64,000 bases of DNA. Source: Sipunculus nudus (taxonomy: Eukaryota; Annelida; Sipuncula; Golfingiida; Sipunculidae). Positions 16,930-54,271 of this stretch are shown here, one piece after another. Both the position numbers and the translations under genes were made by a program. The stretch covers positions 28,931,079 through 28,995,078 of the forward strand of contig CM049307.1 in assembly GCA_026874595.1 (NCBI GenBank). Direction: 5' to 3'. Position 1 is the stretch's first letter. Each line of letters starts with the position of its first letter. The notes beneath the pieces were generated by a model, which saw only the letters and a list, made by a program, of their open reading frames with translations, was not told the DNA's origin and searched no databases.

Positions 16930-17057
16930 ATGGCTGCCCCTCCCCCCACCTATCAAGAAGCAATCAAGTTACCATGGAAACTATTATATGAGGACTTCAT
17001 GCCACAAATACTTGAAGAAGGTGGTATCTTTAGTAAACCAACCTATGAGACCTTCGA
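16930..17057 (+). CDS. Gene A exon 1 (first coding exon), PPxY and start of module 1
   Basis: The acceptor is at 16907-16908, the ATG at 16930 and the donor gtaagt at 17058, ending in phase 2. It encodes MAAPPPTYQEA, then module 1 beginning with YEDFMP and EEGGIFSKPTYETF. PPTY fits the PPxY consensus bound by WW domains of NEDD4-type ligases, which is a family-level inference only. Confidence 0.85.
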
Positions 17058-20000
17058 GTAAGTATAAGCACACAGGAGTTGGAGGGCTATATTTATGGGC
17101 AGGATTCCTGAAGGATTTTATGGTCTTGTGAAATACTTGCTCAGGGTGAGCAAGTTCTGGAGGAGCTATCTTATTGTTGACATTACTAGTTCCTTCAATC
17201 TACAATATTGCGCTATTATTTATTTGCTTAAATCATATGCATAAACAATATGCATATAGATGTAACAGGTGAAAAATTCTGGTTGGAGAGTTTGTGATTT
17301 ATACATGATCTTTATTTGGTGACATGTTGAAAAAAGATTACTGATTATTTTTACTGAAACATAAAAACTTGAGGAAATTGCCAATTTGATATAAAACTTA
17401 TATATTGTTAATATATAAATAAACCTTCTGAACTTATTTATCCAGATTAACATTTATTTTAGTTTAATTTTACAAGGTGATTCTTAGTTTGATCCAGTTT
17501 AATCCTGTTTAATCTGGATAAAACTGGATCAAACCATGCTTTATCCATCATCCTGGATTAAACAAGTTTTATCCGGATACAAAAACCCTGATTCATACTG
17601 AGAGAAACCATTTTTCTTTGCAGTGCTTTAATTAATCGAGCAAACAACTGGCTTTCCCAGCACCCAAACATCAAGGTGATTATGTGTGAGAGCTTGGAGC
17701 ATCCAATTAGACTCAGTGGATGTGTAAAGCCAGAAAAATTATCATACACTCAGCATAAGAATAACAACAGCTACATACGAGCCCTGAGGTTAGTTATAAA
17801 TAAGAGTCACTCAGTCAATAATGGCATAAGCACTTTTTTAGCTCAGCTGACTATAAGTCAATTGAGCTATACCAATGGTTCTTTGGCTGTTTGATGCCCG
17901 TCTATCTCTCTGTCCATCCATCTTGAAAACTGCAACATTTTGAAACTGTTGGCTCAACAGAACAAGAATTGATTATTTGTTAGGTGTCCCCAAAATCTGC
18001 TACCGAACCCAAAACTGGGTCACTGGGACTTGGAGATATAAAGAAAAATCTCCATTTTATATTAAAAGCATATTGTTACACTTCAAGACTATCAGATATT
18101 CTCATAATCAATTTCTGCTGAGTGGTATGACCCACAGGTCCCTTAGTTTGTAATTCATTGATTTTAATGCAGTGCTGATCTTGCCTTCATTCACACTAGT
18201 TTATATATTTATATAATGATAGTAAGGTATTTTTATTATTTTTTAGACTGTATTTTGATATGGAATCTTTAGGTTGGACCTCTACCATGGACCCTGAGTT
18301 CAGTTTTGGGCCGGAAACCTGGACCTTTGTCTTGATATCTTGGTTGGAAGTACCTGGTACCGGGTATCTGTACCAGGGACCAAAGAATCTGGTATAATGT
18401 ACTTCAGGCTTATTTTCACATGCATAGTCTATATGTTATATGTTTTTTTTTATGTATTTTATGTATTATTTTGATGTATCTATTTACTTACTTATTTTTT
18501 TGTCATGAATTGCAAGTCAACAACATATTCCTGGAACTGAAGGCTAATAGATGTTATCTTATCTTATCTTATCTTATCTTTAATGATACTTTAAATGGAC
18601 ATGATGACATGCATATACATGAATATTTATTGTTATTATTTGTTTTAATATATTTGCATTGAATCTAAATCATTTGTAAATTTGCGTTAGTACTGTTTAC
18701 AATAGCTTGGCCTTCACCTAGAGATAGACTTTAAGGAATTACCTAGAGATCATTTAAATACAAGAGCGTGTGCAGGATTTTATTTAAAAGTGCCCATTCA
18801 CCTGCCTTTAGAAAAGGAATTTATGTGATTTCTGGCTTTCTCTGTACATATATTAATTATCTGAGGGTAATTCTGGTTATGAAAAGTTCTTATAACACCT
18901 CTGTAAAGGATGTATGAACTTGTTTATCAACAACATGTTCATAAACACAGCATTGTTGACAAACAGGGAAAAAAATATAACCTAAGGTGGTAGGTTGCAT
19001 ATATGAAAGGTCACATAGAAAGGTCACTTATTGCAAAATGCCATTTGCAAAGCTCTGGCTTATTGTACTTGCCACCAGATGCCCTTGTTGAATTTGTTTT
19101 GACTTTTTTGGCGGGCCCCCATATATTATAAACTTGATATATAGATGCAGCCTATTGTGGTGATATCCATGTTTTCATATAAGCTCCAAGGGATAACCTT
19201 GATTTTATAAGGGTCAGAAGATAGGTAATTGGGCCCATTTAAGACAAATAAGAGACTTAAATTGGAAACTTCATCATCAAGTCTGCTGTTCTTGTGCCCT
19301 TGGAAACCCAGGGGCCTAAATCTGTATAGGCCCTTAGGATTACTTCCAATTAAAACTAGAAGCTAACACCAAAGAGATGAAACAAAGTTAAGCATTCGCA
19401 AGCAATTGACTGGGTCCTATAGGAGATAAAGCCTGATCCGGGCCCCTCTTGAGTTGTCCTAAAAACAGCTATATAAATGCAAGTTAACATAAAAACCAAA
19501 AGAGATTTTCTCATTTTCAAGTATTTTTTGGTGTTTCTCACATAGGAAACTCCTGTTGGGCCACGGCCCCTTTAGATCACTCATATTTTATGTTTCATAA
19601 AACCTGTGACTTCATCATTTTCGACCTTTTACTTCAGCCTTATTGGAAATTCCTAGCCTAAAATAAAATCAAGTGAGACTTATACATTTTCAAACATTTC
19701 AATAGGCCCTATAGGAAACTCTTGGCCAATACGGGTCCCTAAATTAGGCCCCTCAATTTTGATTTAAAACTCCAATTACATACTTCTCAAATGACAAACA
19801 GGATGTGCATTTCTTTTGCCCTATATAGGACACACCTGACTGACCCAGACCCGGGGGGGTCTCCTAACTGAATTTATATAAGCTAAAAATAAAAACTAAA
19901 TTAGCCTACATTTTCAAACATTATTCTACTCTCAGGAAATTCCTGGTCGTTCTGGGCCCCCCCCCCCCCTTGGGCCTGTTGTGTCCAGGTACAGTGTACC

Positions 20001-23000
20001 TGCTGACACCACCGCTCATAGGGCTTGCTTTTAGTTAGATAAACCACGGTGAAGACTGAACACTGCACACTGAAGTTACCAGAACGAATCACAGAACCAG
20101 TATATATTGGCCAGCCACCAGGACTGTCATGCCCCATGCATAACACCACATGACCCATGCATGAGCAGCAGCTTCCAAAGAGGATTTTGTTTGGTCCATC
20201 TTAGCTACAAGAGGGGGTCATTCTATACTGTTTCTAAATTGAAACAGTTTTAACTAGGGCCTGCATGGGCCTTTCAAAAACGACTTTGTAAGCTTATTTT
20301 GCAAAAGGTTTAGGCACATCCTGACAATTTACGAAATTGGGTGCCCCCAAAAATTGTTGAACAGATTTTAGGGGGGGGGTGTAGCTGGCTTTAAGCTATG
20401 AACCATGGATTTCAGGTGTTACACATACTGTGTCAACAGAATGTTCACAGTGTACTGTAAAATTCATGAATTGGAGTTTTTAGGCTCTACTTTGATTACT
20501 GGTTTTGAATTTGCAGGTTGTATCTTATGGACTAGAGATTTCAGGTGTCACACTTCCTATGTCTAGAGAATATTCAAAGTGTACTGCACAATTCATGAAT
20601 TGGAGTTTTTAGGCTCTACTTTGATTACTGGTTTTGAATTTGCAGGTTGTATCTTATGGACTAGAGATTTCAGGTGTCACACTTCCTATGTCTAGAGAAT
20701 ATTCAAAGTGTACTGCACAATTCATGAATTGGAGTTTTTAGGCTCTACTTTGATTACTGGTTTTGAATTTGCAGGTTGTATCTTATGGACCAGAGATTTC
20801 AGGTGTCACACTTCCTATGTCTAGAGAATATTCAAAGTGTACCGCACAATTCATGAATTGGAGTGCTTAGGCTCTACTTTGATTACTGGTTTTGAATTTG
20901 CAGGTTGTATCTTATGGACCAGAGATTTCAGGTGTCACACTTCCTATGTCTAGAGAATATTCAAAGTGTACTGCACAATTCATGAATTGGAGTTTTTAGG
21001 CTCTACTTTGATTACTGGTTTTGAATTTGCAGGTTGTATCTTATGGACTAGAGATTTCAGGTGTCACACTTCCTATGTCTAGAGAATATTCAAAGTGTAC
21101 TGCACAATTCATGAATTGGAGTTTTTAGGCTCTACTTTGATTACTGGTTTTGAATTTGCAGGTTGTATCTTATGGACTAGAGATTTCAGGTGTCACACTT
21201 CCTATGTCTAGAGAATATTCAAAGTGTACTGCACAATTCATGAATTGGAGTTTTTAGGCTCTACTTTAATTACTGGTTTTGAATTTGCAGGTTGTATCTT
21301 ATGGATTAGAGATTTCAGGTGTCACACTTCCTATGTCCAGAGAATATTCAATGTTTACTGCACAATTCATGAATTGGAGTTTTTTGGCATTACCTTAATT
21401 GCTAGTTTTGAATTTTTAGGTTGTATCTTGCACCCAAAGGCCCTGGGGATCCACCATACCCTCAGAAACTGGCACACATCAATGTGGTCCCTGCCTGCCA
21501 GGAAGCAGGAGGGTTTTTCTCATCTCCTAAATACAGCAACTTCAGCGAAACCGTCTCAGCATTCAATAGAGAACTTAGAATCAGACCACTCCAAGGTGAG
21601 CATGGATTGTGTCAGTCTGGCATTTTATTAGCATTTTCTGTAAAGACTGGTATATGAGTCAACCTGGTTCATCTAAAGTGACATGTTCTGATATTACAAG
21701 GTTCCTAGATCAAAAGATTCAGGTTTATATATCTCCAGGCTTAATGAATTTTATCGAGGCTTTTTTAATTTTGCCAAATGCAAACTCTCAATAAAAAGGG
21801 ACATAATCAGGATCAATATTATGTCTGTTCTTTCACACTATCAGTTCAGTTTTGCTTTAAACACAGATTTGCCAGCAGAACCATCCCAGCATGCACAGTC
21901 TCATTTCCTGGCATACAGCTGTTTTACACCTTGCAATGACTGTGTGTGTTGGTAAACATAGTCCATGTGTGACTGTTTACCATAACAAGGCTGCGTGACC
22001 AGAGGTCTGATTAGAGGGGCAACACACGGTGTTTCATCCAGCGGGAACATGTATTATATTTTTTGGCCAAGTCAGTCAGGGCATCCAATGAGTCCTGATT
22101 GACACCTGTTGTGGCTCCACGTTGCAAACAGCCCCACACACTGTGTTTATGTTGACACCTGCAATTGCGTCCGGTCCACTGTTTTTAACACTCGTTTACA
22201 GGAGAAAGTAAACAGTTTCAAGGCAGTATTTTGACAGGTACAGATTTATTATAGCGGCATAAAATATAGGTAGTTAGGCCAAAAAAAAAAGGTATGGTTC
22301 TCGGGCACTGCACGCGCCACCTACAGTCATGTTTACCTGAAAGACATCCAAGCTAAAATTCAACACATCTCACTCTATTTCCCCTTACCACTCAATCAAT
22401 GCCTCACTTCACCCATACCACTCTGATTTTGGCGGATACATGTAGTCGCTTGATGACTACCTGTATTCTCGTATTGTAATGTAGTCAGTCTGTGTGATAA
22501 TTTAAGAGTTTCAGCAATTTTGAGGAATAAGTACACATTTGTGGTTATATTTAAGACTAACTGCTTCTCATTGATACACTTTTAATTAATTCCAGAGACA
22601 CAAAAACTTCCTATTCTATTATCTAACTGAACTACAGTGGAACCCCGCCTTACGACCACCCCACAATTGCGACCACCCCCACAATAACGACCACCTTACT
22701 TGGTCCCAAATATTCGATCCATGTAATTTAGAGTTTCACAATTACGGCCACCCCCAAATTACGACCACTTTGGTCAGTCCCCAAGGTGGTCGTAATTGTA
22801 GGGTTCCACTGTACATGTAATAGCAAATTCAAAGTTACTATTTCAGAAAACATTACTGTAAATAGTTGTGATTGGAATCAATTAAATAACCAGGTTTTGC
22901 ACTATGATATAATTTCAGGGTCTGTGTTAAACATAGAAACTCAGGAGATGAAGCTCCACCATGGAAACAGTATAGCAGATCCGGACCGGGCTATATGGAC

Positions 23001-26000
23001 AGAACAACAGTATACTTGTTTCCTGTATGTAATACGTGTTTTCTATGTGGTGGGACCTCCAGCATTTGAAGAGATTGGTAATTATTGTTATTACCTTATC
23101 CAAGGAGACAATGTTTTCTTCACTGTTTGTCATTTTTTTTAGTTTTTGTTTGTCAATTGGTTTACTTGTTGATTTGTTTGTTGATCTTTTAGCTCAGCTG
23201 ACTGAAAGTCATCTTCAGGAGCTATAGCAATCACTCTTTGTCCATCGTCAGGTTGTCTGGCCGTCCAGCCGTCCTTTAACAGGGCACAAATCTTTACTGT
23301 TAGATCCTGAAATGTCTCACTGTACATTCAGGGAGTTCCATTAATAATCTCCTTCAAAACCTGAAGTAAGGTCTCTGTTACCAATATCCTTTGAGCTATG
23401 GGCCTCATAAAAACCCCCAAAAATAATTTAAAATTTGATACAAAAATTCCAGTATCCGAATAACTAATGCACTGATGGCCATTATTCTTTGCATGCTTAT
23501 TAATTATGGAGTGTTTCATCAGTTCCTGCAGACTGGTGGCGCCACCTGTATGTTTTCTTATTTATTTCTCTGTTTGAGACCTTCAAATGAAATGGACGTC
23601 TATTAACAAGGCACAAATTGTACGCTTTGAACCTAGAATCTTCTAACTTCACATCCACAGAGGTAAATTAAAAATCTCCTTTGGAAACCTGAAATTAAGT
23701 CTCTGTTTTCCATATCCTCCAAGCTGTGTACATAGCTCATATTTACCCCCAAAAATAATTAAAAATTTGATACAAAAGCTCTAGTATCTGAATAACTAAT
23801 GCATTGATTGCCATGATATTTTGCAGACATTTTGACCATGGATTGTTTTATCTGTTCCTTCAGACTGGTGGCACAACATGGATTTTCTAAAAAAAATGTA
23901 CGCATTTTATTCAATTTTTGAGATCTTCAAATGAAGCAGTCATATCTTAACATGGCACACTCAAATTGTCGGTGTTGGACCTAGAATCTTCTAACTTGAC
24001 ATCCAGGGAGGTCCATGAAAAGTTTTCATGGAAACCTGAAATTAAGTCTCTGTTACCCATATCCTCCAAGTCAAATGGCTTGTATATATCCCCCAGAATA
24101 ATTAAAAATTTGTTACAAAAGCTCCAGTATCTGAATAAGTAATGCATTGAATGTCATGATTTTTATGCCCCTGCCACAAAGTGGCCGGGGCATATAGTTT
24201 TATCCATGTCCGTCATTCCGAAATCAAACAGTTGTACGGACTTTTTTTCGCAATGCCTGCAGATATTGGCCTGATTTTTGGTGTGTGGGCAGATATAGAC
24301 CAGTTACAGATCGAGTTCGCGTTTCGTCCCGGTTGACCTACTTTTGACTGTTTTACGGCTCCTAAACTTAGAAAATTTCATGAAAAATAGAAATATTCAT
24401 GACAGATACACATGTACAGACTTTTTTTCGCAATGCCTGCAGATATTGGCCTGATTTTTGGTGTGTGAGCATATATAGACCAGTTACAGATCGAGTTGGC
24501 GTTTTGTCCTGGTTGACCTACTTTTGACGGTTTTACGCCTCCTGAACATAGAAAATTTCATGAAAAATATGAAATTTCATGACAAATACACATGTACGGA
24601 CTTTTTTTCGCAGTGCCTGCAGATATTGGCCTGATTTTTGGTGTGTGGACAGATATAGACCAGTTACAGATGGAGTTCACGTTTCGTCCCGGTTGACCTA
24701 CTTGTGACCGTTTTATGGCTCCTAAACTTAGAAATTTTCATGAAAAATAGAAATATTCATGACAGATACACATGTACGGACTTTTTTTTCGCAATGCCTG
24801 CAGATATTGGCCTGATTTTTGGTGTGTGGGCAGATATAGACCAGTTACAGATCGAGTTCTCGTGTCGTCCTGGTTGACCTACTTTTGACCGTTTTACGGC
24901 TCCTAAACTTAGAAAATTTCATGAAAAATAGAAATTTCATGACAGATACACATGTACAGACTTTTTTTCGCAATGCCTGCAGATATTGGCCTAATTTTTG
25001 GTGTGTGGGCAGATATAGACCAGTTACAGATGGAGTTTGCGTTTTGTCCCGGTTGACCTACTTTTGACGGCTCCTGAACATATAAAATTTCATGAAAAAT
25101 ATGAAATTTCATGACAAATACACATGTACGGACTTTATTTTCGCAATGCCTGCAGATATTGGCCTGATTTTTGGTGTGTCGGCAGATATTGACCAGTTAC
25201 AGATGGAGTTCGCATTTCATCCCAGTTGACCTACTTTTGACTGTTTTACGGCTCCTGAACATAGAAAATTTCATGTAAAATATATATTTTCATGACAAAT
25301 ACACTTGTACAGTTTTTTCTTCACAATACCTGCAGATATTGGCCTGATTTTTGGTGTGTGGGCAGATAATGACCAGTTACAGATCAAGTTCACGTTTTGT
25401 CCCAGTTGACCTATTTTTTACTGTTTGACGGTGCTCTAACATAGAAAATTTCATAAAAAGGTGCACATGTATGGACTTTTTTCGCAGTGCCTGCAGATAC
25501 GGGCCTGTTTTTTGGTGTGTAGGCAGATAATGACCAGTTACAGATCGAGTTCTTGTTTTGTCTCAGTTGACCTACTTTTGACCATTTGACTGCTCCTGAA
25601 CATAGAAAGTTTCATTTAAAAATATAAATTTTCATAACAAATGCATATGTACTGACTTTTTTCCTCAATGCCTGCAGATACCAACCCTGATTTTTTTTGT
25701 GTGGGCAGATAATGACAGTTACAGATCGAGTTTGCGTTTCATCCCGGTTGACCTACTTTTGATTGTTTTACGGCTCCTAAACATAGAAAATTTCATGAAA
25801 GACAGAAATTTTTATGGAAAATGCACATGTATGGACTTTTTTTCACAATGCCTGCATATACTGGCATGATTTTTGGTGTGTTGCTTGATAATGACCCGTT
25901 ACAGATCGAGTTTGCACATTGCCCTTGTTGACCTACTTTTGACCATACGACACCTCCTGAACTTAAAAAATTTTCCAAATTTTACAAATGTTTCTAATAT

Positions 26001-29000
26001 ACCCAAGGCGGGGGCATTCGTGTCGTTCCGACACATCTAGTTTTACATGTATATTGATCATGGGGAGTTTTTTAGTGCCTGCAGACTGATGGAACCAACT
26101 GTATTTTTTTAAATTTTTTCGCATTTTTATGTTTATTTTTGAGAACTTCAGATGAAGCGGTCTCCCATTAACAGGGCAGAAATTGTAAGTGTTGAACCTA
26201 TAGAGAATCTTCTAACTTGACATCCTGAGTGTTCCATGAAAAATCTCCAGAAATTAAGTCATGGTGACCTATACTGTATTTTGCAAATTAAGGGAGAAAA
26301 CATGATTTTTAAGCACACGGTGAGTCAAATGGGGCTCAATTGTGTCCATATGGCCAACTAAAACCCTCGTACGCGACTTTCAGGGAGGTCCCTAAAAATC
26401 TACTTGGAAACGGGAAATGTCACTCAGACTATTTTCTACGAGCTGTGTGAAAGAAAACAAATGGTAGTAGCTGCATGTAGATTAAGGTTACTGTAACCGA
26501 TATCTAAGGGCAATTGACGAAATCCTTAATTTTGAGCACTCTGAGACTCTTTTGGCCCATTGTTCAAGGCTCCTTGAATTCAGCTGAGCATCATGGCTAA
26601 TTGGCCACTTGTTTTATTCCTACCACAATTAAAAAAAATTGTTTCAGATCAGTTACACCCCAGTGAGAACAAAAGCATACAAAGTCAATTACTAGACCAA
26701 AAAACCCCTGTTAAGGTGGATGTTAAGTCTAAAATGTCAGTCTCATTAGACTTTAAACTTTGCCTTCCTGGTCTTTTGGGGCTGTTCCTTCTTGTAGCTT
26801 TTCTTAGCTCCCTGGGAAGTGTACAGCCTAAGCAGTCACAATAGGTGCTAGAAGGTTATATGTTCTACATTTGCCTGCCTCCATGGACCAATACCCATTC
26901 ACTCGTGGGTTGACAGAGTGCACTCTTGTGGTAAAATCTTTGGCTGGGAGTTTTATTAATTAGCAAAGACAGTGGTCAGAACAGGACTTGAACCCACAAC
27001 CTTGCAGTCACAAGTCCAGCTTCCCACCCATTACATCACCACACTCCACTAACAGGCTATGCACCTATCCTCTAAACAAATGATAATACTAATGTATGAG
27101 CTGGAGGACTAAATAAATGTGGATGTGACAGAGCTGTAGCCTTACCAACTTAGCATGCATGGGTGCAGGTTTTGTGTAAATGACACGTTTTATACCAGAT
27201 GACCAACACAGGAAAAATTCCTGCTTAAAAGCTTACATTTTTATATTGGTATTTACTCTTTGGGGCATTGTTCCTGGTATTATTTTAACCTTGAGCATGT
27301 TCCCATTTGATGTTGATACTTGCAGGCTGTGTGGACTTTGTGCCAGGTATTATCAAAGAAGGAGGGATATTCTCGTTACCGGAGTATGATCCTTTTTCTG
27401 CCCTGGTAGACAGAGCTCACATGTGGATGCAACAGAATCCAGGACTACGGATTACTAACATACAGTCTGTCAACTACAGGACACACAGTAAGTCTGTCAA
27501 CTACAGGACACAGAGTCTGTCAACTACAGGACACACAGTAAGTCTGTCAACTACAGGACACAGAGTCTGTCAACTACAGGACACACAGTAAGTCTGTCAA
27601 CTACAGGACACACAGTAAGTCTGTCAACTACAGGAGACAGAGTCTGTCAACTACAGGACTCACAGTAAGTCTGTCAACTACAGGAGACAGAGTCTGTCAA
27701 CAACAGGACACACAGTAAGTCCGTCAACTACAGGAGACAGAGTCTGTCAACTACAGGACACACAGTAAGTCTGTCAACTACAGGAGACAGAGTCTGTCAA
27801 CTACAGGACTTACAGTAAGTCTGTCAACTACAGGAGACAGGGTCTGTCAACAACAGGACACACAGTAAGTCTAACAACTATAGGACACACAGTAAATCTT
27901 TAAACTACAGGACACACAGTAAATCTGTCAACTACAGGACACATAGTAAGCCTGTCAACTACAGGACCCACAGTAAGCCTGTCCACTACAGGACACATAG
28001 AAAATCTGTCAACTACAGGACACACAGTAAGTCTGTCAGTTACAGGACACACAGTAAAACTCAGGCTGTCAACTACAGGTCACACAGTAAGCCTGTCAAC
28101 TACAGGACACACAGTAAGTCTGTGAGTAATAGGACACACAGTCTATCCACAGGACAACTATAGGCACACATGGAGGATTGTGAATTTTTGTCTGTCAGTG
28201 TCTGTTGTTTGATGTGTGTTATAATCTTTGTTTATGGGTAATTGCATTAAAAATGAATGTGACTACTATATCTTCAGATGAGCATGTCATAAAAGTTATT
28301 TTTTTTCAAATAGTTAAACATTTGAAGGATACTACTTGTTCCTTTAATATGATTAAATGGGAAAAGGGTTCAATTGTGAAAGTACACCTTTGTCTTTCAA
28401 ATCAGGATGATTAAGCATTTAAAATAACCAAGTTCTCTGCTTTCTTTCACATATTTGTGTTTGAAACTGCTTATGATTTTTTCACACAGAGATGTCATTA
28501 ATAATATTTCGCAGAAAGCAAGCGTTTTGACAGCCACGAATCCTTGTATAAACCATCCACTGGAGGGTACACAGTACTGCTGCGAGTGCTGAGAGTTTGT
28601 TACGTCATGACGATGGCTCCCAGGGCGAGTGTTATGCCCCCACCACCCATGCTGACATACAAGACCTTCGCAGCACAGCCACTGACCCAGTGCTGTGGCA
28701 GCCCTAGCTCATTTGAATCCTTACAGGAGATGATGATCAGGGTCCAGGAGTGGCTTCATTATAACACAGGTACTCATGTGACTGTTCTAGTTCTAAATGT
28801 TTCTGGTAGATGGCAGCAACCTAGGTGTAGGAAGGCCTGGAAATATGAATCTCGTTTTATGTGGTGAGACTTTGAAAACTGTGCCAACAATCTCCCCCCA
28901 TTGGTACTTAACAAATGTTGATTATAATTTGCTCAGATATCTGGTTAGACCGGCCTGATACATTTTAAAATGTATAATAATTATGGTAATCATATACCTT

Positions 29001-29319: not shown

Positions 29320-29693
29320 CCTTGTTTTATACAGGCCTTATTGTCAACTTTTTATACATGTATACACTAGACCACTTTGTAACAGTTAGGCCTACTGCTT
29401 AGCTCAGGAATGGCAGTCCGTTGGTTCAGAGAGCAGAAGTTGTCATTTTGATAAATCATGAACCTGGCAAGTAAACAGTCAGGCAGTCATATACTGTGTT
29501 TGAATATTGTTTGTGAGGGTTTTTTAATTTGCGATATTTCTGAAAGGGAAAGTATCATGAAAATGAAACATTTTAAGCAGCTCATCTACACAGGTGATTG
29601 GTCATTTATAATACAGCCTCCTTGCCATTTTGTGTATGTTAACAATGTGACCCCACCTGTATGTCTAAATATCTGAGAAAGATTGATATTATA

Positions 29694-29699
29694 AATAAA
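29694..29699 (+). promoter_or_regulatory. Possible gene A polyadenylation signal AATAAA
   Basis: This AATAAA lies 375 nt after the gene A stop, in an AT-rich 3' flank. In such composition AATAAA arises easily by chance, so this is a candidate only. Confidence 0.3.
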
Positions 29700-32600: not shown

Positions 32601-33140
32601 TTGTTTATGTGTATATTCTATTGAAAATTACTGCTCTAATTAGGAATACATGCTTGTTATGCTATATTTGTATGTACATTGATCATAAACCTTGAAATCA
32701 GTAAACAAATCAGTATTGCTGACCTTCTGCATTAGAGAAGTGATTTATGTTGTAAAGCATGTCTTTAAAGGGGACCATTTTTGAGTGCATTGTTATGCGC
32801 CGGAATTCATTTCTATAAACACTCTTTCTTGCACAAACTGACACTTGTTACATGGTAACACTGGTTTCTGTATTGTGTATCTGGGGATGGTGAAACCATT
32901 CATAAACTTAATGGTGATATGTCATCATTCATGGGTATTAGTGGGTCAGCAGACAATAAGCATGACCTACCTTTTTAGAGTTTTTTTATATATATTAATA
33001 TACACTGTTTCATGGTAGCAAACACTGAACCTGCTGCTGTGTTCATGCTTTGACAAGGTCTCCATTAGTTCTGTAAAGGTCAAAATTTTAACCAGTCTGC
33101 GAGGCCAAACTTATGCTAGTTCTGTTGAGGGAAAGACTCT
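29700..33140. other. Intergenic, nothing recognised
   Basis: Downstream flank of gene A: AT-rich, only short frames with no motif or exon signature of the A/B family, and no repeat matched elsewhere in the window. Confidence 0.5.
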
Positions 33141-33262
33141 TTTAGTTCTGTAAAGGTCAAGGCCTTGGTAGTAGTTCACTAAAGGTCAAGGCCTTGGTAG
33201 TCAGTTCAGTAAAGGTAAAGGCCTTGGCAGTCCTTTAAAGTTCATGGCCATTGGCCATCAGT

Positions 33263-33616: not shown

Positions 33617-33619
33617 TGG

Positions 33620-38070: not shown

Positions 38071-38076
38071 ATACAA

Positions 38077-38816: not shown

Positions 38817-38819
38817 TTA

Positions 38820-41380: not shown

Positions 41381-42960
41381 GATGAGTTGGGTTGGACACC
41401 TGGATCAACTGTGGCTGGCCATAAGCTGCCTGGATTCCTGTATGCCTCGCCTCAAGCGTGCATAATTTGATGAAAGGTCAACAAGGTCAACATACAGGTG
41501 ACTCAAGAGGGGCTGGAGAGAGCCAAAGTCTGACAGGGTCTCATAAAAAACATTAATCAAAGCTACAATTTTTGGCCAATTTCTTTCAGCTTTCTAAACT
41601 AAAAAGCTGAAATCCTATTGTGTGCATGATATGAAAATTATATCAACAGTGCTCACAGGACACAAACGTGCCATGGTCACAGTTGGGCAAAATTTAAGGT
41701 ACTAATTTTATATTTATACTAATAACTTATAAAATTTGAAAAATTCAGAACTAATTTTGGGTATTCAATTGAATCTTGATTAAATAATGTTACATCCCTG
41801 ACAAAAAAATCTCTAGCTTCAGCAATGCCCTTGTTAAGGGAGTAAATATATTTCTTGATTTTTTACAAAGTGCATTATGTTTGGGCCCATAACCTAAAAC
41901 AATTACGCAATACTGACATCATTCTGGCATGTGCATAGAGAATGAAAAATATGTATATTATTTATGATTAAAGTCAGATCAGTGGTTTTGATATTAGGCA
42001 GTCTTGAAGTGTAACAATGGTTTTTTAATGGAAAAATGAAGTTTTTCATTAATATCTCGAAGGTATTAAGTCCTAGTGACCAAATTCTTGGCATGGTAGG
42101 GGATTTTGGAGACATCTAACTGTATGCCGAATTTAAGGAACTAAGAGCTGAAGCTGGGGAGCTGAGCTCTTGCAAACTGCATAACACTAGCTTGATGTAA
42201 ACAATATGTTACATGGTGCTTGAAAACTTATTAAAATCTACAGTTTTTGATCAACTGGTTTCAAATTTTTGGTGTTAACAGTTGAAATGCTAAAAAAAAC
42301 ATGCTGTGAAAATTAAATCCACAGTACTTACAGGAAAAAAACGTGCCATGGTCAAAGTTGGGCAAAATTTAAGGTACCAATTTTTTATTTTTATTAATAT
42401 TTTAGAAAATTTAAAAGATTTTCATCTAATTTTGGGTGTACAATTTAATTTTGATTAATTAAAGTTATATTACTGGAAAAAAGGTCGATAGCTTTAACAT
42501 TTTTTGTGTTAAGTGATCAAATATCTTTCCTGAATTTTTACAAAATGCATTATGTTTGGGCCCATAACTTTTTTAAATTAAATAATACAGACATAATTTC
42601 TGGCATGTACATAGGAACTATATAGAGGAATATTTATGGTAAATATGAGGAAAAAACAGATGAGTGGTTTTGATATTATGCAGTCCTGAAGTGTGAAAAT
42701 AGGTTTTTAATAAAAAATTGAGGTTTTTCCTTAATTTCTCAAAGGAACGAAGTTGCAAAGACCCAGTTTTCGGCTTGGTAGGAGATCTTGGGGACATCTA
42801 ACATTATGCCGAATTTTGGATTCCTAGGTCTTACGGTTTCAAAATGTGCCACATCTACGGACGGACGGGCGGACGGACGGACGGACGGACAGACGGACGG
42901 ACGACGGACAATGGACCACGACTATAGCTCAGATGACTTATAGTCAGCTGAGCTAAAAAA
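41380..42960 (+). repeat. Dispersed repeat ending in the agctcag-tgact hairpin, with ~620-bp internal duplication
   Basis: Two diverged internal copies (gtgccatggtca, gggcaaaatttaaggta, ggagatcttggggacatcta) are followed by a ggac microsatellite (42858-42905). The end is ctatagctcagatgacttatagtcagctgagct, an imperfect palindrome. Related copies lie at 55590-56260 and 59040-60270, and inverse at 17838-18120. Confidence 0.7.
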
Positions 42961-43237
42961 GCTACCAGTAGAATCTCAAGATACCTGGTTATAAAATTAA
43001 TACACTTGACATGCCAGCTTTGTATTCAAACAAAATGTATGAACTTTTCTCTTAAAGTGTCTGGTGATTATTGTTTTTAAATAATGAAGCTGAAAAAAAA
43101 TCATCACGGGAAATAGGTGGACAGGGGTACCGGAACAAAACATATAGAATACAAGGTAACAACATCATTGATAAATTGTAATATCTAGATGGTAATAATA
43201 AATACTCAGGGGATCACATGCATTAGCGCCTGGCAGT

Positions 43238-43464
43238 CTACAGAATACGACAGCAGTCTGTGTCTCCCTGTTGTACTTGTGGCATCGGGGGCAGAGCCTG
43301 GGGAGGAGGTTCCTGGCAGTACCCGTTCATGTAAACCCTCAGTACAAACAGCCACTGTTCATTACGATCACCAGGATTGTATGTGTATGTCTGTTCAGTG
43401 TTCCCCCACTGGTGACCAGAATACATGCGGATTGCCACCGTCTCAGCAGAAAGAACACGGATAT
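43238..43464 (-). CDS. Gene B last exon, ends in CaaX-like CRIL
   Basis: On the minus strand the acceptor ttattccccag is before 43464 and the TAG stop is at 43240-43238. It encodes IRVLSAETVAIRMYSG, QWLFVLRVYMNGYC and a Pro/Gln-rich tail ending in DTDCCRIL. Confidence 0.85.
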
Positions 43465-46400
43465 CTGGGGAATAAATTGCAACATGTCAGCCATAATATC
43501 CATATATAGAAATATGAAATGATGGAGGAAACAGTCATTCACATAAGTTATTCGATAATAAAATGACAACAGAACTGAACTAGAGGCCCATGGGCCATGA
43601 CGCTCAGCTGAATTCAAGGAAAATTGAACAATGGGTAACATAACATCCCATAGTGCTCAAAATCTTGCATTTTGCCAACAGACCTTAGATATAGGTTACA
43701 GTGAATAAGATAAACATAAAAGTGAATCCTACAGCCCCATAGCTGAGAGGATATGGGTAACAGAGACAAGGAGATTTTTCATGGGCCTCCCTGGTTGTCA
43801 AGTAAGAAGATTCTAGGTCCAATGGTTACGATTTGTGACTTGTTAACAGATGACTGCTTCTTTAAAGGTCTCAATAATAGAGAAAACAAAATGCATAAAA
43901 ATTGGAAAAAAATACATGTGGCACCACCAGTTTGCAGGAACTGATGAAACACTCCAGGATCAATATGTATGCAAAAAATTATGGTGATCACAATCAATGC
44001 ATTAGTTATTTAGATACTGGAGTTACAGGATGCTTAAATTAGTCATTTTGCCAAAATGGATTTTAAATTACAATATCAAAAACAGCTGGAGCTATCATCA
44101 CAAAATTTTATGCAGATGTTGGTCGAATGACTCATATTTGAAATTGAGGTATTCGTGGTGCCACCTGCATTAACCTTTTTTGTACGAGGGTCATCAGTCA
44201 GTACATTAACCCATAATTTCTCAAGAAAAGCGGGAACTAGCATCCCCAAATTTTATGCAAAACTCTGTCACATATCAAATGTTGTGGGATTGAGCTTTCT
44301 GTGGTGCCACCTGCATTAACTGACATTTTATGGGGAAAAAACTAAAAAAAACTTTTAAAATCATCATCTCTGAATTCATTCAGCCAAATTGTTTAATGTT
44401 TCACAGAAAAATCCCAGAGACCAGCTCTCTCAAGTTTGTTCAAATGGTTTGGGTTTGATGAAATTTGTCTGAGTTACAAGAATTTGATTTTTAGTCATTT
44501 GGTCAAGTAAGCATACTTACATAAAAATCTCAGAAACTATGGGAGCTAGCATCATCAAGTTTTGTGCAAATGTTGTTCACCTGACTCCTATTTCAATTTG
44601 CAGTTTTTGTTGCGCCACGCACATAAACCTGTTTTTTTAGGGACAAAAACCTCATTATTTTTGCCTCTTTCAACTTAAAAATGTTTTATGATGAAACTGT
44701 TAAGCTGAATTGTTTAATTTTTCACACAAATTTTCCTAGGTTAGGGTTCTTTCAAGTGTATAAGAATAGATTCTGTTCATTGAATTTTGATAGAGTCATA
44801 GATAGCTGAAGTTGGTCATGTGGCCATTAGTAAGCCTATTTCAAACTGAGGGCTGCAACAGTCTTCTTCTGGAAAACTTCTTTGACATAGCCCAAAAATG
44901 AATCTTAGGAGGCCTTTGTTCAAGTTTACTGAAATAATTTTTAACGGAATTATTGGACCTTTAACAATGAAAGGACCGCATTTTTTATAATTCTAAACTG
45001 TTTGATTAAATAAGCTTATGAATATGTTAGAGTGAAAAAAAGAATTGTAGCCAAAGTCTATCAGCATGTGTAAACAGATTTACTAACAGGGCTAGATTGT
45101 GTCTGTATCTATAAATAGCTTGGCAGACTGCCAAGTATTTCAGATTTGGCAACAATCCAAAGGTCAGTCTGGATTTATTTATTGCCTTGGCAGACAGCCA
45201 ACCGTTTAAGAGAATGCAACACGTCAAGGGTTCACTCAGTGCACCCAACTACAGGTCAAAAGTTCACTTAGTAAAGTAAGGTGAGGGGGCAACTGCTTTC
45301 TCACCTTAACCTGGTTAGCCCAGTGCAGCTGCATTGTTCATGTACATATTACATGTCTCTGAAAAGTAATGGTCCAGCATTGAAGCATTATACCTGGTGT
45401 GTATGCCACTGCACAGGTTCGCATTAGACCTGTAGGCCTTGATGGCATTACGAGCCCCATATCTCAGAGGATATGGGTAACACAGTCCTAATTTCTTGTT
45501 TCCAAGTAGATTTTTCATGGACCTCTCTGGATGTCGGGTAAGAAGATTGGAGGTCCAATGGTTATGATTTGTGCCCTGTTAGCGAATGACAACTTCTTTG
45601 AAGGTCTCAAAAACAGAGAAAAAATGCATAAAAATTGGGAAAAAATACAGGTGGTGCCACAAGTTTGCAGGAACTGATGAAACACTCCAGGATCAATATG
45701 CATGCAAAAAAATCACATGTGGTGATCAATGCATTAGTTACTTAACCTAGTAAGAAACGGCAATTATAACATTGTTTCACAGCACAAAATGTTATCCGAT
45801 ACAGCCCACTCTAGCACTGTACAAATTTTACATGACAATGACTTTATATGTAATGATTCTAATGTTATTCCTTAAATATAAGCATTGTATTAAAGCTGTT
45901 TCATTTATTTTTATGTTTATAAAACATGTTAGTACTACGGGGACGTTGGTTGTAGTCTTTCACCACAGGGAATGATACTTCAATTCCATAAGTATCAGGT
46001 GGTTGGGATGCCTCTGAAGTCTGGGTGCAACTTATATAATGGACTTTTCCTGAAACAAAACTTTAACGGCTATTCCCGAGGGGTATCCTAAAAACTTGTA
46101 ATAAGGATTTGACTTCTACGACTTTTACAATATACTGAAGCCAGGACATGGCTCTCTTCATTGTCTTTGACATGGTTTCAAAACTAACTTTTATTTACTG
46201 AAGCCAGGACATGGCTCTCATAGTCTGTGACATGGTCTGAATACTTACTTGTATTATACTGAAGCCAGGACATGGCTCTCTGCATCATCTGAGACATGGT
46301 CTCAATACTTACTAGTATTATTTTGAAGCCAGAACATGGTCCTCTGCATGGTCCGTGACATGGTCTCAATACTTACTTGTATTATACTGAAGCCAAGACA

Positions 46401-49400
46401 TGGCTCTCTGCATCGTCTGTGACATGGTCTCAAACTCTGGTACTGTGAACATTCCACCCTGTGTCAGCTGTACTGGGCAGAATGTTTTATATGTAAGAAT
46501 CGGAGCTGGTGCAGCTGGAGCTCCCCCTGGTGATGTGGTGAAACAAACACGCAAGATCCTAACAAAATATGTCCTCATTTCCCCATGTTCCCGAAACAAT
46601 GATCGTTGTGAGTCCAAGCAGCCTCCACCTACAAAACATGCCATAATTAGTTTAAAACTACAGTCTAACTGGCACTGGAAAGAGTTCCACAGGTCTAAGC
46701 TGGACCTAGGCAACATTAAATAATGTAATTTCAAAATGACTTTTCAGTTTTTTTAAAGCAAGGGTTATCATGCGCAGGTTAATGTTACAGAACTGAATGG
46801 GAACACCCCATTTAGACAACAAAAGTAACAATTCTCTCATATCTAGATCTTTAAGATATCTGTAAATTAAAAAGAAAATAAGCTTCAATGCAGTTACTAT
46901 ATATAGCGGACACCTCTAAAAAGTGGACAGCTCTGCCAAATCTAAGGAGTGGCCATATTATAGAGGTAACACTGTATGTTACAATCTGTAAACTTACTCC
47001 ATGTTCCTTTAAGTTTATAGTCAATGGACTGTATATTGGTGACATTTATGGATGGGTTTTGCTGAATCCACTGTCTTGCCTTGTCCACCAATGTATGGAA
47101 GGGTGCAAACTCTGGATGAGACAATATACCTCCCTCTCTCAGCTGATCAGGTAAGAAATCAGCAGCACCTTCAAAAGAAAACATAATATCTCTGAATGAA
47201 ACATTAATACCCCATTCTGTTAGCCGATCAGGTATGATATCAGAAGCACCTTCAATAGAAAACATAACTCTGAATGAAACATTAGTACCTCATTCTGTTA
47301 GCCTATCAGGTATGAAACCAGGAGCACTTTCAATAGAAAACATATCTCTGAATGAAACATTAATACCTCATTTTGTTAGTCGATCAGGTATGAAATCAAG
47401 AGCACCTTCAATAGAAAGTGTATCTCTGAATGAAACATTAGTACCTCATTCTGTTAGCCTATCAGGTATGAAACCAGGAGCACTTTCAATAGAAAACATC
47501 TCTGAATGAAACATTAATACCTCATTTTGTTAGTGGATCAGGTATGAAATCAAGAGCACCTTCAATAGAAAGTGTATCTCTGAATGAAACATTAATACCC
47601 CATTCTGTTAGCTGATCAGGTATAATATCAGTAGCACCTTCAATAGAAAACATAGAGAACATTAATACCCCATTCTGTTAGTCGATCAGGTAAGAAATTA
47701 GCAGCACCTTCAAAAGAAAACATAATATCTCTGAATGAAACATTAATACCCCATTCTGTTAGTTGATTAAGTATGAAATCAAGGGCACCTTCAAAAGAAA
47801 AAATATATATGAATGAAACATTATTACCCCATCGTGTTGGCCAATAAGGTATGAAATCAGGAGCACCTTCAAAAGAAAACATCTTTGAATGAAACATTAA
47901 TACCCAATTCTGTTAGCCGATCAGGTATGAAATCAAGAGCACCTTCACTAGAAAACATATCAGGTATGAAATCAGGAGCACCTTCAAAAGAAAACATATC
48001 TCTGAATGAAACATTAATACCCCATTCTGTTAGCCGATCAGGTATGAAATCAAGAGCACCTTCACTAGAAAACATATCTGTAAATGACACATGATTACCC
48101 CATCGTGTTGGCCGATAAGGTATGAAATCAGGAGCACCTTCAAAAGAAAACATATCTTTGAATGAAACATTAATACCCCATTCTGTTGGCTGATCAGGTA
48201 TGAAATCAGGAGCACTTTCAATAGAAAACATATCTCTCAATGAAACATTAATACCTCATTCTGTTAGCTGATCAGGTATGAAATCAGGAGCACCTTCAAA
48301 AGAAAACATATCTCTGAATGAAACATTAATTAATACCTCATTCTGTTAGCTGATCAGGTATGAAATCAGGAGCACCTTCACTAGAAAGCATATCTCTGAA
48401 TGAAACATTAATACCTCATTCTGTTAGCCAATCAGGTATGAAATCAGGAGCACCTTTAAAAGAAAACATATCTCTGAATGAAACATTAATTAATACCTCA
48501 TTATGTTAGCTGATCAGGTATGAAATCAGGAGCACCTTCAAAAGAAAACATATCTCTGAATAAAACATTAATTAATACCTCATTCTGTTAGCCAATCAGG
48601 TATGAAATCAGGAGCACCTTCAAAAGAAAACATATCTCTGAATGAAACATTAATTAATACCTCATTCTGTTAGCCAATCAGGTATGAAATCAGGAGCACC
48701 TTCAAAAGAAAACATATCTCTGAATAAAACATTAATTAATACCTCATTCTGTTAGCCAATCAGGTATGAAATCAGGAGCACCTTTAAAAGAAAACATATC
48801 TCTGAATAAAACATTAATTAATACCTCATTCTGTTAGCCAATCAGGTATGAAATCAGGAGCACCTTCATAAGAAAACATATCTCTGAATGAAACATTAAT
48901 TAATACCTCATTCTGTTAGCCAATCAGGTATGAAATCAGGAGCACCTTCAAAAGAAAACATATCTCTGAATAAAACATTAATTAATACCTCATTCTGTTA
49001 GCCAATCAGGTATGAAATCAGGAGCACCTTCAAAAGAAAACATATCTCTGAATAAAACATTAATTAATACCTCATTCTGTTAGCCAATCAGGTATGAAAT
49101 CAGGAGCACCTTCAAAAGAAAACATATCTCGGAATGAAACATTAATTAATACCTCATTCTGTTAGGTGATCAGGTATGAAATCAGGAGCACCTTCACTAG
49201 AAAGCATATCTCTGAATGAAACATTAATTAATACCTCATTATGTTAGCTGATCAGATATGCCAGGAGCACCTTTAAAAGAAAACATATCTCAGAATGAAA
49301 CATTAATTAATACCTCATTCTGTTAGCCAATCAGGTATGAAATCAGGAGCACCTTTAAAAGAAAACATATCTCTGAATGAAACATTAATTAATACCTCAT

Positions 49401-52400
49401 TATGTTAGCTGATCAGATATGCCAGGAGCACCTTTAAAAGAAAACATATCTCGGAATGAAACATTAATTAATACCTCATTCTGTTAGCCAATCAGGTATG
49501 AAATCAGGAGCACCTTCACTAGAAAGCATATCTCTGAATGAAACATTAATTAATACCTCATTATGTTAGCTGATCAGATATGCCAGGAGCACCTTTAAAA
49601 GAAAACATATCTCAGAATGAAACATTAATTAATACCTCATTAAGTTAGCTGATCAGGTATGAAATCAGGAGCACCTTTAAAAGAAAACATATCTCTGAAT
49701 GAAACATTAATTAATACCTCATTATGTTAGCTGATCAGATATGCCAGGAGCACCTTTAAAAGAAAACATATCTCGGAATGAAACATTAATTAATACCTCA
49801 TTCTGTTAGCCAATCAGGTATGAAATCAGGAGCACCTTTAAAAGAAAACATATCTCTAAATGAAACATTAATTAATACCTCATTATGTTAGCTGATCAGA
49901 TATGCCAGGAGCACCTTTAAAAGAAAACATATCTCTGAATGAAACATTAATACCTCATTCTGTTAGCCGATCAGGTATGAAATCAGGAGCACCTTTAAAA
50001 GAAAACATATCTCTGAATGAAACATTAATTAATACCTCATTATGTTAGCTGATCAGGTATGAAATCAGGAGCACCTTCACTAGAAAGCATATCTCGGAAT
50101 GAAACATTAATTAATACCTCATTCTGTAAGCCGATCAGGTATGAAATCAGGAGCACCTTTAAAAGAAAACATATCTCTGAATGAAACATTAATTAATACC
50201 TCATTCTGTTAGCTGATCAGATATGCCAGGAGCACTTTCAATAGAAAACATATCTCTGAATGAAACATCAATTAATACCTCATTTTGTTACCTGATCAGG
50301 TATGAAATCAAGAGCACCTTCAAAAGAAAACATATATATGAATGAAACATTATTACCCCATCGTGTTGGCCAATAAGGTATGAAATCAGGAGCACCTTCA
50401 AAAGAAAACATCTTTGAATGAAACATTAATACCCCATTCTGTTAGCCGATCAGGTATGAAATCAAGAGCACCTTCACTAGAAAACATATCTCTGAATGAA
50501 ACATTAATACCTCATTCTGTTAGCCGATCAGGTAAGAAATCAGGAGCACCTACAAAAGAAAACATATCTCTGAATGAAACATTAATACCCCATTCTGTTA
50601 GTCAATCAGGTATGAAATCAAAGGCACATTCATTAGAAAGCATATCTCTGAATGAAACATTAATACCTCATTCTGTTGGCTGATCAGGTATGAAATCAGG
50701 AGCACTTTCAATAGAAAACATATCTCTGAATGAAACATTAATTAATACCTCATTCTGTTAGCCAATCAGGTATGAAATCAGGAGCACCTTCAAAAGAAAA
50801 CATATCTCTGAATGAAACATTAATACCCCATTCTGTTAGCCGATCAGGTATGAAATCAAGAGCACCTTCACTAGAAAACATATCTGTAAATGAAACATGA
50901 TTACCCCATCGTGTTGGCCGATAAGGTATGAAATCAGGAGCACCTTCAAAAGAAAACATATCTTTGAATGAAACATTAATACCCCATTCTGTTGGCTGAT
51001 CAGGTATGAAATCAGGAGCACTTTCAATAGAAAACATATCTCTCAATGAAACATTAATACCTCATTCTGTTAACCGATCAGGTATGAAATCAGGAGCACC
51101 TTCAAAAGAAAACATATCTCTGAATAAAACATTAATTAATACCTCATTCTGTTAGCTGATCAGGTATGAAATCAGGAGCACCTTCACTAGAAAGCATATC
51201 TCTGAATGAAACATTAATACCTCATTCTGTTGGCTGATCAGGTATGAAATCAGGAGCACTTTCAATAGAAAACATATCTCTCAATGAAACATTAATACCT
51301 CATTCTGTTAACCGATCAGGTATGAAATCAGGAGCACCTTCAAAAGAAAACATATCTCTGAATAAAACATTAATTAATACCTCATTCTGTTAGCTGATCA
51401 GGTATGAAATCAGGAGCACCTTCACTAGAAAGCATATCTCTGAATGAAACATTTATACCCCATTCTGTTGGCTGATCAGGTATGAAATCAGGAGCACTTT
51501 CAATAGAAAACATATCTCTCAATGAAACATTAATACCTCATTCTGTTAACCGATCAGGTATGAAATCAGGAGCACCTTCAAAAGAAAACATATCTCTGAA
51601 TAAAACATTAATTAATACCTCATTCTGTTAGCTGATCAGGTATGAAATCAGGAGCACCTTCACTAGAAAGCATATCTCTGAATGAAACATTAATACCTCA
51701 TTCTGTTAGCCAATCAGGTATGAAATCAGGAGCACCTTCAAAAGAAAACATATCTCTGAATGAAACATTAATTAATACCTCATTCTGTTAGCTGATCAGG
51801 TATGAAATCAGGAGCACCTTCACTAGAAAGCATATCTCTGAATGAAACATTAATACCTCATTCTGTTAGCCAATCAGGTATGAAATCAGGAGCACCTTCA
51901 AAAGAAAACATATCTCTGAATGAAACATTAATTAATACCTCATTATGTTAGCTGATCAGGTATGAAATCAGGAGCACCTTCACTAGAAAGCATGTCTCTG
52001 AATGAAACATTAATACCTCATTCTGTTAGCCAATCAGGTATGAAATCAGGAGCACCTTTAAAAGAAAACATATCTCTGAATGAAACATTAATTAATACCT
52101 CATTCTGTTAGCTGATCAGATATGCCAGGAGCACCTTTAAAAGAAAACATATCTCTGAATGAAACATTAATTAATACCTCATTCTGTTAGCTGATCAGGT
52201 ATGAAATCAGGAGCACCTTCACTAGAAAGCATATCTCTGAATGAAACATTAATTAATACCTCATTCTGTTAGCCAATCAGGTATGAAATCAGGAGCACCT
52301 TCAAAAGAAAACATATCTCTGAATGAAACATTAATTAATACCTCATTCTGTTAGCTGATCAGGTATGAAATCAGGAGCACCTTCACTAGAATGCATATCT

Positions 52401-54271
52401 CTGAATGAAACATTAATACCTCATTCTGTTAGCCAATCAGGTATGAAATCAGGAGCACCTTTAAAAGAAAACATATCTCGGAATGAAACATTAATGAATA
52501 CCTCATTCTGTAAGCCGATCAGGTATGAAATCAGGAGCACCTTCAAAAGAAAACATATCTCTGAATGAAACATTAATTAATACCTCATTATGTTAGCTGA
52601 TCAGATATGCCAGGAGCACCTTTAAAAGAAAACATATCTCGGAATGAAACATTAATTTATACCTCATTCTGTTAGCCGATCAGGTATGAAATCAGGAGCA
52701 CCTTTAAAAGAAAACATATCTCTGAATGAAACATTAATTAATACCTCATTCTGTTAGCTGATCAGATATGCCAGGAGCACCTTTAAAAGAAAACATATCT
52801 CTGAATGAAACATCAATTAATACCTCATTTTGTTACCTGATCAGGTATGAAATCAAGAGCACCTTCAATAGAAAGCATATCTCTGAATGAAACATTAATA
52901 CCTCATTCTGTTAGCCGATCAGGTATGAAATCAGGAGCACCTTCAAAACAAGTTCACATAAACCATAGAGAGCAACTTTCCCATCACTCCCATCAGCTGA
53001 GTAATCAGTTAAAATAAATCTAATACCTGTCCTTATATCACATGCATATACAAGCCCACTTTGACACACCTCAAATGGTTAAAACAAGATGTGGTCAGAC
53101 AATGGTCCATTAGAGGGCCCTGCATTTCTGGTAGTACTGGACTAGTTTACATACAGGTAAAAAGTTTAGTTTATAGTTCAAAAATATGACAAACAGAAAC
53201 AGGTTTTTATCAATATGCATGAGAGAACAAAAATTCTACGGGTTCAAATCATATTAAAGAAGATATGGTTGAAATAATGTGTGCAATACGAAATCATCTT
53301 TTGTTCTCTGGCAGCCATATTGGATATTTGGCGGGTGTGTATTGTGATGGGGATTGAGCCCTTGAAGGTACCAATCATCCCTGTGAATATTTAAAAGATC
53401 TGGTGTGTTCTTGTTGATATAATGCACGCGAAAATCACAGATTGTGCTCTGACAGCCATATTGAAATTCTAACAGGTCTGTAATTCATTAGGTCTGGAGC
53501 CCTCATGGGTCCCAATGATCCCTGTGAATTTGAGAAGGATCAAAGTTTTTCTTTTTGAGATATCATGCACGAAAGAAAATCACAGATTGTGCTCTGGTGG
53601 CCATTTTGGAATTCACATAGACCTGTATTTTGGTAGGGATGGAGTCCTTACAGGTACCAAGCATCCCTGTGAATATGAGAACGACCAAGCTTTTTCTTTT
53701 TGAGATATCATATGCAAAAGAAAATCATGGACTGTGCTCTGGTGGCCGTATTAGAATTTCTACAGACCTGTAATTTGATATGTCTGCAGCCCTTATAAGT
53801 ACCAATCATCCCTGTGAATTTGAGAAAGATCAAGCATGTTCTTGTTGTGACATCGAAAATCACTGATTGTGCTCTGGTGGCCATACCCCAAGTCTGGTAG
53901 GTCTGTTATTCAATAGGTCTGGAGGGCTGACAGGTAAAAAATCATCCCTGTGAATTTGAGAAAGATTAAGCATGTTCTTGTTGAGACAAGGTGCGCAAAA
54001 GGAAGTGTCACTGATGGACGGAGGGACACAGTGATCACTATAGGGTACCGCTACCCTAATTAAAACAGCATATGAATATATTGTGAAATAACAAAAGTCA
54101 CCTTACCTATGTCCTGATAAGCAGGCGGCCCTGCCACATAGAATAGTCTGATTACATAGAGATAGTAGGTGTTGTGGTCCCCGTGCTCTGTCCAGTAACA
54201 CTTGTCCGGGTCAACCTCATTACCCCAGCTCTTAAACTTCATCTCCTGGGTTTCTATATTTGTTATGAATC
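43238..54271 (-). CDS. Gene B (3' part): paralog of gene A, last four exons
   Basis: Exons on the minus strand, 5' to 3': 54271-54107, 47168-46998, 46628-46377, 43464-43238 (165, 171, 252 and 227 nt), all joined in phase 1 with AG acceptors and gtaagg/gtaagt/gtaagt donors. They correspond one to one to gene A exons 4-7 (159, 162, 255, 212 nt). The encoded part covers the end of module 2, all of module 3 and all of module 4. Unlike gene A, module 4 keeps an intact signature (QGGMFTVPEFET). The tail is Pro/Gln-rich and ends DTDCCRIL, a CaaX-like box with an extra Cys. Exons 1-3 were not found between 54300 and 64000, so they lie to the right of the window or are too diverged to see. Intron 4 (~6.9 kb) is mostly a tandem array of copies of the exon 5 acceptor. 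Gene A and gene B are convergent, 13.9 kb apart. The function is unknown. Confidence 0.8.
44040..45440 (-). repeat. Dispersed composite repeat, copy 3 (inverse)
   Basis: It shares with 4800-7463/9111-9305 and (inverse) 60575-63195 the blocks gctggagctatcatcac, attcgtggtgccacctgc, ttggcagactgccaa, gggttcactcagtgc and ggtccagcattgaagcat. It lies 3' of gene B exon 6, in intron 6. Confidence 0.65.
46138..46430 (-). repeat. 61-64 bp tandem array (5 units) duplicating the exon 6 donor of gene B
   Basis: gaagcc starts at 46138, 46200, 46261, 46325 and 46389. The 46389 unit is the true exon 6 end. Read on the minus strand, each unit encodes a version of ETMSQTMQRAMSWLQYNT followed by gtaagt (gttagt in the last). 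The donors lie +64, +128 and +188 nt beyond the true one, none in frame for exon 7. Confidence 0.9.
46377..46628 (-). CDS. Gene B exon 6-equivalent, module 3 end and module 4 start
   Basis: On the minus strand the acceptor gttttgtag is before 46628 and the donor gtaagt follows 46377. It encodes GGCLDSQRSLFREHGE, YFVRILRVCF, a Pro/Ala-rich linker, LTYKTFCPVQLTQGGMFTVP and SWLQYNT. The 3' end and donor are repeated four more times downstream (46138-46370). Confidence 0.85.
46998..47168 (-). CDS. Gene B exon 5-equivalent, module 3 first half
   Basis: On the minus strand the acceptor tcttttgaag is before 47168 and the donor gtaagt follows 46998. It encodes GAADFLPDQLREGGILSHPE, then VDKARQWIQQNPSINVTNIQ. 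An alternative acceptor in the next repeat unit (first exon base 47249) would add exactly 81 nt (27 codons) without a stop and in frame. Confidence 0.85.
47165..52949 (-). repeat. 5.8-kb tandem array of 78-82 bp units duplicating the exon 5 acceptor of gene B
   Basis: About 70 units. Read on the minus strand, each carries ttttcttttgaag|gtgctcctgatttc, the same polypyrimidine/acceptor and first exon bases as exon 5 (47168). The 78-bp form is 26 codons and reads FSFEGAPDFIPD-(R/W)LTEWGINVSFRD. Many units carry a 4-bp TTAA insertion (82 bp) or a TGG-to-TGA change that stops the frame. A third variant (gatcagatatgccagg) is 3 bp shorter. Larger blocks repeat too: 47885 onward reappears at 50414, the block ending 48240 reappears ending 51046, and a ~239-bp triple repeats at 51069, 51308 and 51546. 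Confidence 0.95.
53290..54010. repeat. ~140-bp tandem repeat (five units) in gene B intron 4
   Basis: catccctgtgaat recurs at about 53379, 53516, 53663, 53807 and 53947, each followed by gagaa-gatcaagc-ttct and preceded by gattgtgctctggtggccat. Confidence 0.8.
54107..54271 (-). CDS. Gene B exon 4-equivalent
   Basis: On the minus strand the acceptor ttgttcacag is before 54271 and the donor gtaagg follows 54107. It encodes FITNIETQEMKF, then WTEHGDHNTYYLYVIRLFYV and AGPPAYQDIG, aligning directly with gene A exon 4. Confidence 0.88.

Follow-up and report, generated by a model that had tools for sequence, protein, structure and literature searches.

Splice junction-spanning tandem arrays in a family of paralogs, probable counterparts of the amphioxus mirages

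Boundary repeats described in other genomes

Tandem duplications of exon-intron boundaries with units of 10-160 bp have been described in amphioxus under the name mirages, in Adh3, the globins BflGb6 and BflGb9, troponin C and PGBD5 (PMC3087553; PMC3902484). Mirage units span the boundary, occur at donors as well as acceptors, differ in length, affect several unrelated genes and retain AG or GT in many, but not all, copies, and the arrays that we describe here share each of these properties. The amphioxus mirages are reported to leave regular splicing undisturbed and to be unstable in length, between haplotypes or somatically, whereas the present arrays are known from one assembly and offer frame and conservation evidence on splicing. 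A human case is the 31-bp VNTR of CBS, c.1444_1467+7(16_21), which is present in 16-21 copies and varies in length among people (PMC2630376). By its coordinates, its unit consists of coding bases plus 7 intron bases and, like the units here, spans the donor; CBS is, however, a single human locus with population variation, while our arrays come from one assembly.

In human segmental-duplication paralogs, internal tandem repeats at exon-intron boundaries were proposed to help form introns (PMC2812944). They resemble our arrays in being minisatellite expansions at the exon edges of paralogs (recent ones in human), but about half of the variable repeats are coding and many are found in transcripts, whereas the copies here look intronic. 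Drosophila introns have been gained through tandem duplication of proto-splice sites (PMC2891723), and intron gain of this kind, in a protostome too, is like our arrays in that splice signals are carried along (PMC2891723, PMC4974935). Coding sequence is duplicated there and a new intron results, whereas here the paralogs have their introns in common and multiplication is confined to the intron edges, where it forms arrays.

In the literature that we found, junction-spanning arrays occur in a few amphioxus genes and at some human loci; here, in a distant animal, they affect 7 of the 139 exons sampled. Among the open-access papers listed, which were judged mostly by titles and first lines, we saw none that reports such arrays in a protostome, molluscs included. 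This one genome makes it testable how the splicing machinery selects one site when dozens of near-identical sites are on offer, and whether new introns can be made from duplicated junctions.

Junction arrays in the window and in related genes

We analyzed a window of 64,000 nucleotides (G000:C2:28931079-28995078) from an assembly of 1.43 Gb in 153 contigs. It contains two convergent paralogs, gene A and gene B, whose exons were mapped by exon-by-exon comparison with paralogs and by the GT/AG splice consensus at their edges. Arrays were located with Tandem Repeats Finder, and the copies of the gene B exon 5 array were counted by wrap-around alignment. The features are as follows.

16930..29319, + strand: gene A, 7 exons, located by tblastn searches with the exons of paralogs and bounded by GT/AG
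16930-17057, 17624-17788, 21420-21595, 22919-23077, 27326-27487, 28515-28769, 29108-29319, + strand: exons of gene A
43238..64000, - strand: part of gene B inside the window, by paralog comparison
54271-54107 (exon 4), 47168-46998 (exon 5), 46628-46377 (exon 6), 43464-43238 (exon 7), - strand: exons of gene B in the window
20408-21429, + strand: array of 129 bp x 7.9 at the acceptor of gene A exon 3, reaching 10 bp into the exon (start 21420)
27464-28142, + strand: array at the gene A exon 5 donor, 27/23 bp, about 26 copies, with 24 bp of the exon inside (end 27487)
47108-52948, - strand: array at the gene B exon 5 acceptor, 78/82 bp, about 73 copies by wrap-around alignment
46131-46433, - strand: array of 64 bp x 4.8 at the donor of gene B exon 6, with 57 bp of the exon inside (end 46377)

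The window edge cuts gene B, whose exons 1-3 lie outside at about C2:28,995,089-28,997,799 and whose last exon is 43464-43238. Exon boundaries were consistent among paralogs: the end of gene A exon 5 agrees with the ends of exon 5 in genes B and C, the edge of gene A exon 3 was placed by homology to gene B exon 3, and the gene B exon 6 donor reads ACAA/GTAAGT. Neither gene matched a Pfam family above the cut-off, and a PDB sequence search returned no convincing match for their family.

Two other elements of the window were set apart from these genes. The frame at 45904-46059 (- strand), just downstream of exon 6, was rejected as exon 7 of gene B because it is a dispersed repeat, with at least 151 matches listed, mostly to this frame and most with an in-frame stop. 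Positions 12783-15991 hold a non-LTR retrotransposon whose endonuclease domain is preceded by GDIETNPGP, which we take to be a 2A-like motif, with the reverse transcriptase portion in further overlapping frames.

All four arrays proved to be real and, as an initial annotation of this DNA had proposed, anchored on splice junctions together with adjoining exon bases: every unit includes a paralog-supported junction, and the overlap with the exon ranges from 10 to about 60 bases. The same annotation had called the units unrelated in length and sequence, and this too held, the unit sequences being mutually unrelated and their lengths 129, 27/23, 78/82 and 64 bp. Tandem Repeats Finder describes the gene A exon 5 array as 27 bp x 26 or, alternatively, by a 50-bp period, and places 28 or 61 bp of gene B exon 5 (start 47168) inside its array, depending on the row. 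The copied AG was intact in 8 of 8 copies at the gene A exon 3 acceptor and in 65 of 74 at the gene B exon 5 acceptor, and the copied GT in 18 of 26 at the gene A exon 5 donor and in all 4 copies scored at the gene B exon 6 donor. A genome search that skips very common words gave 31 matches to the gene B exon 5 unit, all inside its own array. With no match outside its own locus in this search, the unit was probably born there, and an origin as a dispersed satellite or transposon-derived array, for which matches elsewhere in the genome were sought, was discarded for this unit.

A protein search recovered three more spliced relatives, gene C on contig 7, gene D on contig 2, where it is separated from gene A by about 285 kb, and gene E on contig 17, which carry the following junction arrays.

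Gene C, exon 4 acceptor: 45 bp x 20
Gene D, exon 6 donor: 47 bp x 25
Gene E, exon 2 donor: 61 bp x 11.7

All five spliced paralogs that were recovered thus have at least one junction array, and the proposal that tandem duplication at exon edges recurs was upheld by 7 such arrays (3 at acceptors, 4 at donors) that have no junction in common and differ in their units. This count covers the mapped exons, which do not include exon 1 of gene C, exon 7 of gene D or the greater part of gene E.

These relatives contain further repeats and single-exon kin. The gene C array (L001:5731-6623) is built of units TTTATCAG/GTAAGG, so that each copy resembles an acceptor and a strong donor together, presumably a recursive-splicing-like site. 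Among the non-junction arrays of gene D is one of 35 bp x 68 that occupies most of intron 3; another array of this gene (L012:1-329, 34 bp x 9.8) stops about 25 bp short of the acceptor that precedes the first exon found and leaves that acceptor uncopied. Genes A and B also have intronless relatives, on contigs 4 and 13 (L003:1368-2642 and L010:1445-2656, with ORFs of 424 and 403 aa); a Pfam search assigned them to no family, and they are possibly retrocopies or ancestral single-exon members.

Set beside the amphioxus mirages, the four window arrays and those at gene C exon 4, gene D exon 6 and gene E exon 2 all have units that contain a junction with adjoining exon bases, these junctions being authentic as judged by paralog comparison. 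Donors and acceptors are both affected, by unrelated units, in the family and in the control exons described below. A cephalochordate host is a feature of the published mirages and not part of their definition. Innexins number one in lancelets, lampreys and most tunicates and three in jawed vertebrates (PMC8769644). With 15 or more innexin loci in the present genome, its owner is not a lancelet; it is very unlikely to be any chordate and is most likely a protostome, though the innexin count taken alone would suit a cnidarian or ctenophore as well, and a mollusc is no more than a guess. Searches for the GFP family and for mollusc haemocyanin, of a kind that cannot show absence, gave no hits.

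Junction crossing in the family and in control exons

As controls we used 139 exons of the same genome, taken from myosin (60 of 75 hits), kinesin (59 of 126) and P450 (20 of 95), with the P450 exons chosen for exon-like short frames, many P450 hits being intronless. Flanks of 330 bp were inspected (one side was shorter in L043, L187 and L199), and an array had to have at least three copies, a period of at least 10 and a Tandem Repeats Finder score of at least 50 to be counted. The exon edges come from profile hits and not from annotation, so that the 278 sites are an upper bound, and some exons belong to one gene (L047, L211 and L213 lie within 15 kb on C9).

Junction-spanning arrays were present in 7 of the 139 control exons, at the donors of myosin exons L040, L047 and L203 and at the acceptors of kinesin exons L216, L221, L225 and L229, the last called by eye because its copies near the exon are degenerate. 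We found none among the 20 P450 exons, and two-copy duplications that cross the donors of L049 and L204 were left out of the count. The view that such arrays are rare in controls, drawn from 0 anchored arrays in the first 39 kinesin exons, was overturned by the second control batch. Together with genes C, D and E, these control exons limit what can be retained of the initial annotation, which had tied the arrays to one paralog pair: the anchoring stands, but the restriction to a pair or family does not. Of the 95 P450 hits, 31 match the domain from its start through at least position 439 in one stop-free frame, so that these genes look intronless.

Genes A-D contain 16 arrays with a minimum of three copies, a period of 10 or longer and a score of 100 or higher, and 6 of these cross a junction. 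Random placement that spares exons averaged 0.50 crossings when an exon overlap of up to 65 bp was allowed and 0.23 at up to 30 bp, and under neither setting did any of 20,000 trials give as many as 6; four of the six crossing arrays are the discovery arrays, so this enrichment is partly post hoc. The controls have junction arrays at 7 of at most 278 sites and the family has them at 7 of 52, hand-counted from its mapped exons (one-sided Fisher test, P 0.002); once the discovery genes A and B are removed, the family figure is 3 of 28 (P 0.053). The family does look richer in junction arrays than the controls, with the reservation that P is 0.053 without genes A and B.

Fifteen array edges lie near control exons, and 7 of them cross the junction, against about 15% under tolerance alone (P 0.004), a rough null taken as 60 of 390 bp and a count that includes L229, called by eye. 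The 8 edges that do not cross belong to L062, L063, L172, L180, L211 (two) and L213 (two), one of the L213 edges being the far end of an L211 array. Repeat density in the control flanks, profiled in 137 of the 139 windows with the exon of L199 misplaced on one side, was 3.7% at 0-30 bp from the exon, 4.0-5.4% at 30-300 bp and 6.6% at 300-330 bp, and in the exons themselves 1.7% in the outer 30 bp and 0.5% or less deeper; no sharp peak at the junction was seen in these 137 windows.

Copied splice sites and the origin of the arrays

We compared the copied splice dinucleotides with the other columns of their units in 13 of 14 arrays, with L229 left out and the exon copy included. AG or GT was intact in 181 of 209 copies, where 178.6 are expected from the other columns, and purifying selection on the copied sites was rejected, as they are conserved no better than the rest of the unit. 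If alternative sites were used, the reading frame would stay open in 7 of 160 cases, four of them the acceptors of L225, with 72-bp units (4 of 4 open); the other 153 shift the frame or bring in a stop codon. In the frame of its exon, the array at gene C exon 4 contains 1 stop in 291 codons and, from its sequence, could nearly be read through. Its changes from the unit consensus (23 synonymous, 57 replacing, 1 stop) fit the expectation without coding constraint (20.7, 56.8 and 3.5), and coding constraint was likewise rejected. As AG and GT decay like other columns and the alternative frames are mostly broken, the extra copies look neutral, tolerated clutter and not working parts.

These results bear on a role for redundancy, in which repeated sites would act as decoys, as backups or as a source of short peptide repeats. 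Intact sites in many copies, the open frames of L225 and the nearly uninterrupted gene C array speak for such a role, and the last two count against a neutral reading. We nevertheless consider it improbable, given the lack of excess conservation, the broken frames of most alternatives, the unconstrained changes in gene C and unit lengths that are frequently not multiples of three, and the use as decoys or for exon diversification that the initial annotation had entertained was not borne out. More improbable still is an assembly error or a misplacement of exon boundaries. Tandem arrays are difficult to assemble, and the boundaries were placed without cDNA, but they agree among paralogs, the copies inside arrays differ from one another, and the structure recurs in seven arrays at unrelated loci.

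In our assessment the arrays are probably junction-spanning minisatellites of the amphioxus mirage kind, neutral expansions that are tolerated, a reading supported by the separate units and sites, the same structure in unrelated genes and the neutral decay of the copies. A short segment that happens to span an exon-intron junction would be duplicated in tandem, and the duplicate would then be enlarged by slippage or unequal exchange. The copy adjoining the exon body would stay a functional splice site while the remaining copies turn into intron and drift; such duplications would be tolerated because one correct junction remains, and junction arrays would be free to grow where purely exonic arrays would be purged. 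On this reading the arrays are of a known kind, encountered widely in a distant lineage, and are not a new splicing device.

Tolerance alone is challenged by the control edges, and since 7 of 15 cross against about 15% expected, some bias toward junctions may be at work. Taken further, splice junctions would be preferred birth sites, at which a mutational process acting through AG/GT microhomology or transcription seeds duplications. The 6 of 16 crossing arrays of genes A-D, where 0.5 are expected, and the excess among control edges favor this idea, as do five other arrays that begin about 22-40 bp from the junction (L172, L180, both of L211 and one of L213). The flat density of the control flanks, lower at 0-30 bp and without a sharp peak at the edge, and the inflation of the family figures by the discovery genes weigh against it, and we regard it as rather unlikely, though less so than a function or an artifact. 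Equally tentative is its broad form, in which a junction-linked mutational process, judged from about 5% of exons in the control sample, would multiply splice junctions genome-wide, independently of the amphioxus lineage, and make introns lengthen at their edges; were it true, redundant, drifting splice sites would arise again and again and could feed intron gain or exon shifts.

A further observation concerns the assembly itself. Several of the contigs C60-C89 are bacterial, with near-equal COX1 and ABC scores. The top COX1 hits in the assembly are bacterial contigs, and a short nuclear COX1 fragment lies on C5. The COX1 of one bacterial contig is 52-58% identical to its best 80 bacterial loci, which come from diverse genomes, and the bacterial contigs mark an uncharacterised cobiont, perhaps several strains.
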